From the NCBI RefSeq assembly GCF_030813515.1, contig NZ_JAUSUK010000002.1, positions 434,001 through 498,000 on the forward strand: DNA of 64,000 nucleotides, given 5' to 3'. The notes under the pieces were generated by a model that saw only the letters and a list, made by a program, of their open reading frames with translations, had not been told where the DNA came from and searched no databases. A program made the translations under genes and the position numbers. Positions 35,913 through 51,061 of the stretch are shown here, one piece after another. Every line of letters begins with the position of its first letter. Position 1 is the stretch's first letter. This DNA is from Rhodopseudomonas julia. Its GTDB lineage: Bacteria; Pseudomonadota; Alphaproteobacteria; Rhizobiales; Afifellaceae.

Positions 35913-36049
35913 GGGTGTTCTGGCGGTCGCGTCCAGCGCCGTGGCAGGTCCGCAGCGAGGTCTTGTCCCATTGCGTTCAGTCGGTTCGGTCCGCTAGCTG
36001 ACGCGATGCACGACTTTCTTTGCGCCATGCCAGTCCTGCGGGCGAAGCG

Positions 36050-37069
36050 ATGACGGATCCACAGAATGCGAGCGATCTGAGGCCCAAACGCATCCTCGTT
36101 CTGGGCGCGACTGGCACGATCGGTCGTGCCACGGCGAGGGCGCTCGTTGCCCGCGGCCATGAGGTCGTCTGCTTCGTGCGGCCGAAAGCCGGTGTCGGCG
36201 GGGCGCTGACGCCGGAGGGGACGGCGAAGCTTCTGGAGGGGGCAAAACTGCGCTTCGGCGAGGTGACTGACCCGGCTTCGCTCAGACGCGACGGGTTTTC
36301 CGGCGAGCCTTTCGACGTTCTCGTCTCCTGCCTTGCCTCGCGCACCGGCGGAGAAAAAGACGCCTGGGCGATCGATTATCAGGCGCATTCCGACGCCCTT
36401 GCCGCGGCGCGGGCGGCGGGTGTGAGCCAGATGGTGCTTCTGTCGGCGATCTGCGTGCAGAAACCGCTTCTCGCCTTCCAGCAGGCGAAACTCGCCTTCG
36501 AGAAGGAATTGATCGCGTCGGGGCTCACCTATTCGATCGTGCGGCCGACGGCCTTCTTCAAATCGCTCGCCGGCCAGATCGACCGGCTGCGCGCCGGAAA
36601 GCCCTATCTTCTCTTCGGCGACGGGCGGCTGACGGCGTGCAAGCCGATCAGCGACGACGATCTCGGGCGCTATCTCGCCGAATGCGTGGATGACGACAAC
36701 CGCCACGACAAGATCCTGCCGATCGGCGGGCCGGGCGATGCGGTGACGCCGATCGAACAGGGGGAAAGGCTGTTTCAGCTTCTGGGTAAGGAGCCGAAAT
36801 TCAAGCATGTGCCGGTGGCGCTGATGGATGCGATCATCGCCGGGCTGAGCGGGCTTGGCAGGTTCTCGCCGAAGCTGCGCGCCAAGGCGGAGCTCGCCCG
36901 GATCGGGCGCTATTACGCGACGGAATCGATGCTGCTCCTCAATCCCGAGACCGGGCGCTACGACGCGGCGGCGACGCCGTCCTACGGCACCGAAACGCTG
37001 TTCGATTTCTATGCGCGGCTCGTCACAGGCGAAGCGCGCGTGGAACGCGGCGACCACGCAGTGTTTTGA
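36050..37069 (+). CDS. bciA: Divinyl (proto)chlorophyllide 8-vinyl reductase, BciA type
   Basis: 339 aa, NADPH-dependent extended SDR. Rossmann motif VLGATGTIGRATARAL (residues 18-33); the middle region carries CVQKPLLAFQQAKLAFE and YSIVRPTAFFKSLAGQ, then FGDGRLTACKPISDDDL, all strongly typical of BciA. The enzyme reduces the 8-vinyl group of divinyl chlorophyllide during (bacterio)chlorophyll synthesis. Start at ATG 36050; an ATG ten codons earlier is possible. No other photosynthesis gene is in the window, so it is separate from any photosynthesis cluster here. It indicates a phototroph or a recent descendant. Confidence 0.88.
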   Translation: MTDPQNASDLRPKRILVLGATGTIGRATARALVARGHEVVCFVRPKAGVGGALTPEGTAKLLEGAKLRFGEVTDPASLRRDGFSGEPFDVLVSCLASRTGGEKDAWAIDYQAHSDALAAARAAGVSQMVLLSAICVQKPLLAFQQAKLAFEKELIASGLTYSIVRPTAFFKSLAGQIDRLRAGKPYLLFGDGRLTACKPISDDDLGRYLAECVDDDNRHDKILPIGGPGDAVTPIEQGERLFQLLGKEPKFKHVPVALMDAIIAGLSGLGRFSPKLRAKAELARIGRYYATESMLLLNPETGRYDAAATPSYGTETLFDFYARLVTGEARVERGDHAVF

Positions 37070-37213: not shown

Positions 37214-38500
37214 ATGAAAGTGCTCATCCTCACCTATGGATCGCGCGGCGATGTCGAGCCCTATGTGGCGCTGGGCCTCGGGCTCGAGGCGCATGGCCAT
37301 GACGTCGTGCTGGCGACGAGCCGGCGGTTTCAGGGCTTCGTCGAGGCGCATGGATTGCGCTTCGGGCCGCTCAGCGACGCGCTTCTTGCGATCCTCGACA
37401 CCGATCAGGGCAAGGCGCTGTTGGAGAAGGGCGGCGGCCTCTTTCAGGTCGTCAAAAGCAGCCTCGAGATGTGGCGGCAGCTGAAGCCCTTGCAGCAGGC
37501 GCTGATACAGGAATGCTGGGAGGTTGCCCGGGCGTTTGATCCCGAGATCATCGTCTATCATTCGAAAGCGGCCGCTGCGCCCTCGATCGCCGACAAGCTC
37601 GGCTGCGCCTGCGTGCTCGCGACGCCCGTGCCGATGCATGTGCCAACGCGGGCTTTCCGCTTCGCGATTCTGCCGCGACTGCCCCTGGGGGGCTGGGTCA
37701 ACAAGGCGAGCTACGGGCTCACCAATGGCGTCGTGAAAAGGGTTTTCGGGCCTCTCATCCAGGATTTCAGGGGCTCGCTCGATCTGCCTGCGATCAAGAG
37801 CTACGAGCCGCTGACGCGAAGCGACGGGAGCGATATCCCGGTGCTGCACGGCTTCAGCGAGGTGGTGCTGCCGCGCCCCGAGGACTGGCCCGAGAGCGCC
37901 CATGTCACCGGCTATTGGTTTCTGCCCGACGACGCCGATTGGACGCCGCCCGATGCGCTTGCCGCATTTCTCGCGGCCGGCCGGCCGCCCGTCTATGTCG
38001 GCTTCGGCTCGATGTCGGTGCGGCAGCCGGAGACGCTCGCCCGGCTCTCGGTGGAGGCTTTGGTCGCCGCCGGCGTGCGAGGCATTCTGGCGAGCGGCTG
38101 GGGGGCGTTGAAGGCCGAGGACTTGCCGGAGAATGTGCTCCTCATCAAGGAGGCGCCGCATTCCTGGCTGTTTCCCAAAATGGCGGCGATCGTGCATCAC
38201 GGCGGTGCGGGAACGACGGCCGCCGCGCTTCGAGCCGGAAAGCCGTCGCTCGTCGTGCCGTTTTTTGGCGATCAGCCGTTCTGGGGCGCGCGGGTGCATG
38301 CGATCGGCGCAGGCCCGAAACCGATCCCAAGAGGAAAGCTCACCGCGGGGCGGCTTGCGGCGGCCCTTCGCGTGATGACGCAATCGCAGGAGATGCGGGA
38401 GAGGGCGGCGGAGATTGGGGCGCTGATCTCCAACGAGGACGGTGTGGCGGTGGCGCGGGGGCTCATCGAGAGCGCGGGGGCCGGGCCCGCTCGCCGGTAA
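37214..38500 (+). CDS. GT1-family glycosyltransferase (UGT/sterol glucosyltransferase-like)
   Basis: 428 aa, GT-B fold. The N-terminal MKVLILTYGSRGDVEPYVALGLGLEAHGHDV binds the acceptor. The C-terminal donor site has VYVGFGSMSVRQPE and the signature HHGGAGTTAAALRAGKPSLVVPFFGDQPFWG. Relatives glycosylate lipids, sterols, hopanoids, carotenoids or macrolides. AGGAGACGCAC precedes ATG. It is next to bciA, so a carotenoid or membrane lipid acceptor is possible, but nothing here fixes it. Confidence 0.88.
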   Translation: MKVLILTYGSRGDVEPYVALGLGLEAHGHDVVLATSRRFQGFVEAHGLRFGPLSDALLAILDTDQGKALLEKGGGLFQVVKSSLEMWRQLKPLQQALIQECWEVARAFDPEIIVYHSKAAAAPSIADKLGCACVLATPVPMHVPTRAFRFAILPRLPLGGWVNKASYGLTNGVVKRVFGPLIQDFRGSLDLPAIKSYEPLTRSDGSDIPVLHGFSEVVLPRPEDWPESAHVTGYWFLPDDADWTPPDALAAFLAAGRPPVYVGFGSMSVRQPETLARLSVEALVAAGVRGILASGWGALKAEDLPENVLLIKEAPHSWLFPKMAAIVHHGGAGTTAAALRAGKPSLVVPFFGDQPFWGARVHAIGAGPKPIPRGKLTAGRLAAALRVMTQSQEMRERAAEIGALISNEDGVAVARGLIESAGAGPARR

Positions 38501-38566
38501 GTTCGGGGGGATTTTCGCACGAGGTCTTGGCGGAGGCGGTGGCGGGAGATAGATCCCGCGTCAAAA

Positions 38567-38758
38567 GGAGGACGACCTCCCCCCAGCCTGGTTTGGCCCC
38601 AGCCTGGTTTGGCCCCAGCTTGGGATGCCCCAGCTCGGGCTGCCCCAGCTCGGGCTGCCCCAGCTCGGGCTGCCCCAGCTCGGGTTGCCCAAGCTCGGGT
38701 CGCCCATTTCGGGCTGCAATGTCCAGGACGGCCTGGCCCATCAATCGTGGAGGGGCTC
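38567..38758 (+). ncRNA. Guanidine-II (mini-ykkC) riboswitch with an expanded linker
   Basis: Two hairpins with the diagnostic ACGR tetraloop and GG-ACGR-CC closing pairs: P1 GGAGG-ACGA-CCTCC (38567-38580) and P2 CCAGG-ACGG-CCTGG (38723-38736). P2 ends 12 nt before GGAGGGG (38749-38755) and the GTG start (38759) of a SugE/Gdx guanidinium exporter, the canonical gene for this riboswitch. The P1 3' arm CCTCC is also complementary to GGAGG of the ribosome site, which offers a switch: P1 formation on guanidine would free the site. The linker of 142 nt is much longer than the usual short one and is filled with a 15-bp tandem repeat. Confidence 0.85.
38581..38717 (+). repeat. 15-16 bp tandem repeat, nine units, inside the riboswitch linker
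   Basis: Two 16-bp units CCCCAGCCTGGTTTGG, one CCCCAGCTTGGGATG, then CCCCAGCTCGGGCTG three times exactly (38628-38672), CCCCAGCTCGGGTTG, and two decayed units. Each typical unit can fold as CAGC-TCGG-GCTG, a four-pair mini-hairpin, so the linker may be a chain of small hairpins that keeps P1 and P2 close. Confidence 0.9.
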
Positions 38759-39076
38759 GTGCCTTGGATCTATCTCGTCGTCGCCGGTATTCTCGAAGTC
38801 ATCTGGGCCTTTGCGATGAAGCAGTCGTATGGCTTCAGTCGGCTCATTCCGTCACTCATTACGGTGATCGCCATGGCGGCGAGCCTGTGGCTTTTGGCGG
38901 TCGCCATGCGCAGCATCCCGCTCGGCACCGCCTACACGATCTGGACCGGCATCGGAGCGATGGGCGCCTTCGTCGTCGGGATCGTCTTTCTGGGTGAGCC
39001 GGTGAATGCGGCGAGGATTTTGGCCGCGCTCCTGATCGTTTCGGGGCTCGTGCTGATGCGGGTCGCAAGCGCTTGA
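38759..39076 (+). CDS. sugE: SMR-family guanidinium exporter (SugE/Gdx)
   Basis: 105 aa, exactly the family length, four membrane helices. It starts with GTG at 38759 behind GGAGGGG. The first helix has the essential Glu (LVVAGILEVIWAFAMK), and GTAYTIWTGIGAMGAFVVGIVFLGEP is the Gdx/SugE signature rather than EmrE. It exports guanidinium in exchange for protons as an antiparallel dimer. Longer readings starting in the tandem repeat are not supported, because they would translate the riboswitch. The guanidine-II riboswitch upstream confirms the role. Confidence 0.93.
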   Translation: MPWIYLVVAGILEVIWAFAMKQSYGFSRLIPSLITVIAMAASLWLLAVAMRSIPLGTAYTIWTGIGAMGAFVVGIVFLGEPVNAARILAALLIVSGLVLMRVASA

Positions 39077-39395
39077 GGTTTCCGTTCTGCCGGAGTGTGG
39101 ACCCGGCGCCGTTCCGATGAGGCAGCGGTCGCGGGTTCGGCGCAAAAAAACGGGGCGGATCAATCGGTTCGGAGCCGACCTGCGACATTCTGCGTCTTTG
39201 CGATCACTCCGGAACGTTTCTTGCGTGGAAAGAATGAGTTAGAAGGGCCGCGCGGTTCTTTCTGGTGCTCTTCGCGCAACTTTGGCGCCAGTATTCGGGA
39301 CCGAAAACGTCCGGTCGATCCGGTTGCTAGCGCCTGTCGCCGAGGGCGGGCAGCATCGGCGCCAATCGGCGTTCCTTGGGTTCAGCGAGGCTGAA

Positions 39396-49447: not shown

Positions 49448-51005
<1,558 letters not shown>

Positions 51006-51061
51006 GATGTGTTGCGACCCGGCGAGGTGCGCTGCGTGCGTTTGAGGCGGGGGAGGTGATA

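Follow-up and report, generated by a model that had tools for sequence, protein, structure and literature searches.

Can a guanidine-II riboswitch still operate when its two hairpins lie much further apart than is usual? The question is raised by a locus of Rhodopseudomonas julia, found in a stretch of 64,000 nucleotides that was analysed as a whole and is called the window below. Two GC-rich hairpins capped by ACGR tetraloops, P1 and P2, stand just upstream of sugE/gdx (Table 1), and the linker between them (38581-38722) is exactly 142 nt long. This lies outside the published range of 7-40 nt (PMC7544219), with intermediates of 48-49 nt in close relatives. The first-pass annotation had placed both hairpins, their spacing, the Shine-Dalgarno sequence and the GTG start, and all positions proved exact to the base; its central claim, a guanidine-II-type element with an exceptionally long linker in front of a SugE/Gdx exporter, was upheld. 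With the guanidine-II (mini-ykkC) family, RF01068, the window shares the GC-rich hairpins, the ACGA and ACGG loops closed by G-C, the downstream gene and a Shine-Dalgarno sequence close behind P2. It differs in its linker, which holds an array of nine hairpin units, whereas the structure line of RF01068 has no linker hairpin.

Table 1. Features of the locus (positions in the window).
Feature	Start	End	Strand	Basis
P1 hairpin GGAGG-ACGA-CCTCC	38567	38580	+	Sequence; same as Desulfomicrobium L109
Nine tandem hairpin units (16, 16, 15 x6, 14 nt)	38581	38716	+	Tandem Repeats Finder, unit split
Predicted linker hairpin, units 1-2	38583	38607	+	Linker RNA fold, prediction only
Predicted long rod-like stem, 91 nt, units 2-8 pairing mutually	38611	38701	+	Linker RNA fold, prediction only
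P2-proximal linker hairpin GCCC-AUUUC-GGGC	38702	38714	+	Fold; position in relatives; covariation
P2 hairpin CCAGG-ACGG-CCTGG	38723	38736	+	Sequence; identical in A. marina, G002, L109
Predicted OFF helix: P2 loop/3' arm 38731-38734 with GGGC 38753-38756	38731	38756	+	Folds; pairing test
Shine-Dalgarno GGAGG	38749	38753	+	Sequence; 5 nt upstream of GTG start
sugE/gdx, SMR-family guanidinium exporter gene	38759	39076	+	Pfam PF00893, NCBIfam NF008512, PDB 6wk5; GTG start

Under a strict definition (5 bp stem, at least 4 G-C pairs, G-ACGR-C), P1 and P2 are the only such hairpins on both strands of the window, and a first-order Markov model yields about 0.01 chance pairs within 250 nt per 64-kb strand. 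The gene product is, judged from its sequence, closer to SugE/Gdx than to EmrE/Qac: the NCBIfam SugE model NF008512 gives 123.1 bits, narrowly under its cut-off of 126, compared with 73 bits for the next family, and the Gdx-type PDB chain 6wk5 gives 111 bits versus 65 for EmrE. Guanidine-I and guanidine-III riboswitches were not found in this genome. Just upstream of P1, a pair of elements at 38527-38555 (TTGGCG-17 nt-TAGATC) looks promoter-like by eye and is present in Afifella marina too; a consensus promoter scan did not report it. The gene directly upstream (37214-38500) encodes a UDP-glycosyltransferase that distantly matches models of rifamycin/macrolide glycosyltransferases. This gene is missing at the corresponding place in the relative G002, where the upstream sequence resembles the gene at 36020-37069 instead. 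Elsewhere in the window, a CRISPR-like array with the repeat GTCGCCCCTCACGCAGGGGCGTGGATCGAAAC and a spacing of about 66 occupies 49847-51006.

A search with the RF01068 covariance model, suggested by the first-pass annotation as a check, brought a point absent from it: the gathering score of 32 bits is not reached in the window, where the best pieces score 18.3 bits (P1 joined to a linker unit) and 11.4 bits (P2 end). The cause is the length of the linker, since a Desulfomicrobium locus (L109) with the same two hairpins letter for letter and a 19-nt linker attains 36.5 bits, above the cut-off. From its sequence features, the element would be classed as a variant of the guanidine-II riboswitch, with formal membership lowered by the sub-threshold score. 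Besides the window, the model was run on the complete genome and on 397 genomes of the order. The window's family (11 genomes) yielded no match; those of its genomes that do have an element show either a variant loop in P1 or a long linker. Relatives were therefore collected by SugE protein and by the P2-to-start pattern. This suggests that standard RNA searches overlook long-linker cases of guanidine-II. Among 102 distinct P1-linker-P2 elements, a non-random sample gathered via SugE similarity and a P2 pattern, the median linker is about 20 nt long; the window's is the longest, followed by 49, 48, 48, 39 and 38 nt. Two loci with apparent chance matches to the P2 pattern (L179, L204) and L177 were left out of the statistics.

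The survey also brought up divergent forms of P1. Many Alphaproteobacteria and Pigmentiphaga have a six-base loop (GAGG-C[CA]ACG[TCA]-CCTC) together with a P2 with canonical ACGG. Such loci lie upstream of sugE (L007, L102, L112, L115, L117, L127, L132, L134, L154, many of L164-L178, and L184, L187, L188, L195, L196), and most of those belonging to the order are missing from the RF01068 matches. In Stenotrophomonas and Massilia, P1 often has a five-base AACGR loop.

What fills the long linker is a tandem array: nine units of 14-16 nt, followed by CAATGT. The units were split by eye and checked by script, and Tandem Repeats Finder reported arrays of period 15-16. Units 1 and 2 are identical, as are units 4, 5 and 6, and such identity of neighbours indicates recent slippage. 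Across the whole genome, exact copies of the units are confined to this locus, which rules out a dispersed repeat element. None of the linker units has an ACGR loop, and going by their sequence the extra units would not be expected to bind guanidine. Many small hairpins are arrayed in a guanidine-II context also in the elephant CA8 antisense RNA, where nine hairpins, unlike the extra units of the window, resemble guanidine-II aptamers (PMC12335538). The nine-unit state was found in one genome only, and an assembly error may affect the repeat number, though the array is short.

Close relatives contain fewer units. Afifella marina (L002/L063) and G002 (L003) have three, with linkers of 49 and 48 nt that align with the last three units of the window, so that its extra 93-94 nt fall on the P1 side. 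These loci agree with the window in genomic place, P2, a near-identical P1, the last two units, the CAATGT tail and the start region. G003 (same genus) and G006 (same family) have one unit (linkers of 24 and 19 nt) and a variant P1 loop; the single-unit loci among the close relatives are L006 and L007. Linkers of Halomonas urumqiensis (L073, 38 nt), Methylobacterium sp. R2-1 (L124, 48 nt) and an order-level relative (L155, 39 nt) have been lengthened as well, apparently by duplication of their own hairpin. In contrast to the window they have two copies at most, the events being apparently independent, and L124 and L155 carry a variant P1 loop.

Counterparts of the unit also exist outside the family. 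Each unit of the window is a version of a C-rich/G-rich hairpin that is present once in most SugE-linked guanidine-II linkers, written as CCC-loop-GGG with about 9 further nt; Microbulbifer, for instance, has CCCATTTCGGGTAGTGATTC. This covarying hairpin between P1 and P2 occurs in Gamma-, Beta- and Alphaproteobacteria, Desulfobacterota and Bacteroidota (linkers in L061-L140 and L154-L200) and is usually missing from linkers of 13-17 nt. When its halves were swapped between species, using the single-unit linkers of 33 dereplicated loci, the mean energy rose from -4.56 kcal/mol for a species' own halves to -3.06 kcal/mol, and none of 3000 swaps was as good. Comparison of linker-hairpin folding with shuffles gave a Fisher p of 5e-8, the window and other multi-unit linkers being included. 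Some stems have changed and yet been kept, such as GCCCGCG/CGCGGGT (L112), GCCTGC/GCAGGC (L196) and CTCACCC/GGGTGAG (L171). The covariation of its halves across species makes it very probable that the linker hairpin is a genuine element of the structure. It is rather unlikely that this hairpin is a third, conserved mechanistic hairpin of SugE-type guanidine-II riboswitches whose Afifella version is a VNTR, with the copy number tuning the switch between strains.

The first-pass annotation had offered two ways out of the distance problem: either the architecture tolerates a long linker, or a fold in the linker brings the loops close to each other. The folded linker is borne out in prediction. 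The linker alone reaches -85.4 kcal/mol and none of 200 dinucleotide shuffles is as stable (z -3.93), a score that is no separate proof of selection, as a self-complementary tandem unit folds well by construction. The P2-proximal hairpin of this fold is the counterpart of the single linker hairpin of other species. Only 2 + 3 + 8 = 13 linker nt are predicted to stay unpaired between the helices. The guanidine-II linker of Escherichia coli likewise has 13 nt (PMC9300104), although helix ends add distance in the window. The two alternatives turned out not to be mutually exclusive: the architecture seems tolerant of length precisely because the inserted units are self-folded.

All these structure predictions, for the linker as for longer transcripts, leave the kissing interaction, the ligand and kinetics out of account. 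When zero to nine units were folded in silico in a transcript that stops at the start codon, P1 formed with a probability of 0.90-0.97 and P2 of 0.18-0.80, and the Shine-Dalgarno sequence was unpaired at 0.23-0.36, all with no clear trend. In a transcript ending before the Shine-Dalgarno sequence, P2 is predicted to be formed only at 0.30-0.40 because units 1-2 pair with it. Once 30 nt of coding sequence are added, P1 and P2 are both displaced in the predicted ligand-free minimum (0.07 and 0.03), so the ON state would depend on the ligand and on the kinetics of folding. The loop of P1 with its flank, at 38571-38576 (GACGAC), is complementary to GTCGTC at about 38777-38783, early in sugE; it is by this pairing that P1 is opened in the fold that includes the 30 nt.

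How might such an element control the gene? A terminator-like site was found nowhere in 38440-39200; a transcription terminator was therefore set aside as the expression platform, in agreement with translational control. A direct on/off mechanism had been proposed earlier on the basis of pairing between the CCTCC arm of P1 and the GGAGG ribosome site. The complementarity stood, but its species specificity did not: when partners were swapped between species, 461 of 2000 swaps were as good for the P1 3' arm (for which the exact complement of the 5' arm stood in as an approximation), compared with only 9 of 2000 (23 dereplicated loci) for the loop and 3' half of P2 with the Shine-Dalgarno/start region. 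The P1 arm was set aside as the main anti-Shine-Dalgarno. The comparison favours putative sequestration of the Shine-Dalgarno sequence by the 3' half of P2, a pairing that is part of the window's predicted ligand-free minimum; the GGGC partner in the predicted OFF helix overlaps the end of the Shine-Dalgarno sequence. In published models, it is the linker that holds the anti-Shine-Dalgarno (PMC9094411, PMC9300104). At 38732-38758 and at the same place in relatives, the 3' end and flank of P2 (GGCCC, GGCTCT, GGCAGC) are complementary to the surroundings of the Shine-Dalgarno sequence (GGGCC, AGAGCC, GCTG), and both sides vary between species.

Taken together, the locus is probably a working translational ON switch of the guanidine-II type for the Gdx exporter, in which the linker hairpin has been expanded by slippage to nine self-folded units. 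Replication slippage would have turned a single linker hairpin into the tandem array, which would fold on itself during transcription and leave about 13 linker nt unpaired. As in family members with a short linker, guanidinium could then dock the loops of P1 and P2; a hallmark of the family is that two guanidinium ions bind cooperatively while the loops kiss. The stabilised P2 would keep its loop and 3' arm off the Shine-Dalgarno/start region, so that sugE is translated. As the units fold among themselves, their number may be close to neutral.

An unlikely alternative is that the array has damaged the switch, leaving hairpins that can no longer meet and a sugE gene that is constitutively or poorly expressed. 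The restriction of nine units to one genome, the recent expansion implied by identical neighbours and the ability of units 1-2 to pair with P2 in a partial transcript would all fit such a loss, which if recent would not yet appear as decay. Yet P1, P2 and the region from P2 to the start are intact. From P2 to the start codon, 36 of 36 positions are identical to A. marina, versus 89-91% in the flanks and coding sequence, and the single base that differs in P1 makes its closing pair G-C in the window and G-U in A. marina. The four differences between G002 and the window in the P2-to-start region all fall in the spacer before the Shine-Dalgarno sequence and none in P2. The pattern named at the outset as speaking against the element, one conserved hairpin with another ACGR hairpin nearby, was not seen: three-unit relatives keep both hairpins and all else, and the window has no further ACGR hairpin near P1 or P2 on either strand. 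Predicted accessibility is also no worse with nine units than with three. This conservation pattern, on few bases (36 nt in the comparison with A. marina), argues for a working switch.

It is very unlikely that the repeats act as a rheostat, with unit number setting the OFF level or the threshold through pairing of GCCC(C) with GGGGC over the Shine-Dalgarno sequence. Most units do have CCCC after G, complementary to GGGGC at 38752-38756, unit number varies among close relatives (1, 3, 9), and the linker location of the anti-Shine-Dalgarno in the models cited above is compatible with the idea, but the units prefer pairing with each other, and going from three to nine of them leaves the predicted accessibility of the Shine-Dalgarno sequence level (0.23-0.27). 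There is a slim chance that the loops work in trans, or each by itself, with P1 and P2 kissing between mRNAs or P2 and the sequestering helix working alone. Trans pairing is unlikely at low mRNA concentration. P1 with a canonical loop is kept in 3 of 3 multi-unit Afifella genomes, and a folded linker makes such arrangements unnecessary, even though dimers form readily in vitro from isolated stem loops (PMC5486947). It is hardly credible that the array is unrelated to RNA regulation, be it a coding repeat or a satellite at the level of DNA that landed here by chance: some frames stay open on both strands (for example a PELGQ-like run on the minus strand), but with units of 14, 15 or 16 nt the frame changes from one unit to the next and from relative to relative, on which ground a coding repeat was rejected, the exact units are found nowhere else in the genome, and the unit resembles a covarying RNA hairpin at the same place across phyla.

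For the expanded but working switch, the analysis suggests that guanidine-II switches tolerate very long folded linkers. No description of a tandem-expanded guanidine-II linker was found in the literature searched, a body to which the founding mini-ykkC papers did not belong. Guanidine-II searches that insist on a strict P1 and on a short linker fail to pick up probable members, among them those of the window's family, and a covarying linker hairpin has been left out of the covariance model. For the smallest guanidine riboswitch, the locus and its relatives amount to an experiment of nature on linker length, with three versus nine hairpins between nearly identical aptamer halves and one hairpin in others, and make it testable whether P1 and P2 can dock only across a short linker, only across a folded one, or with no such requirement.
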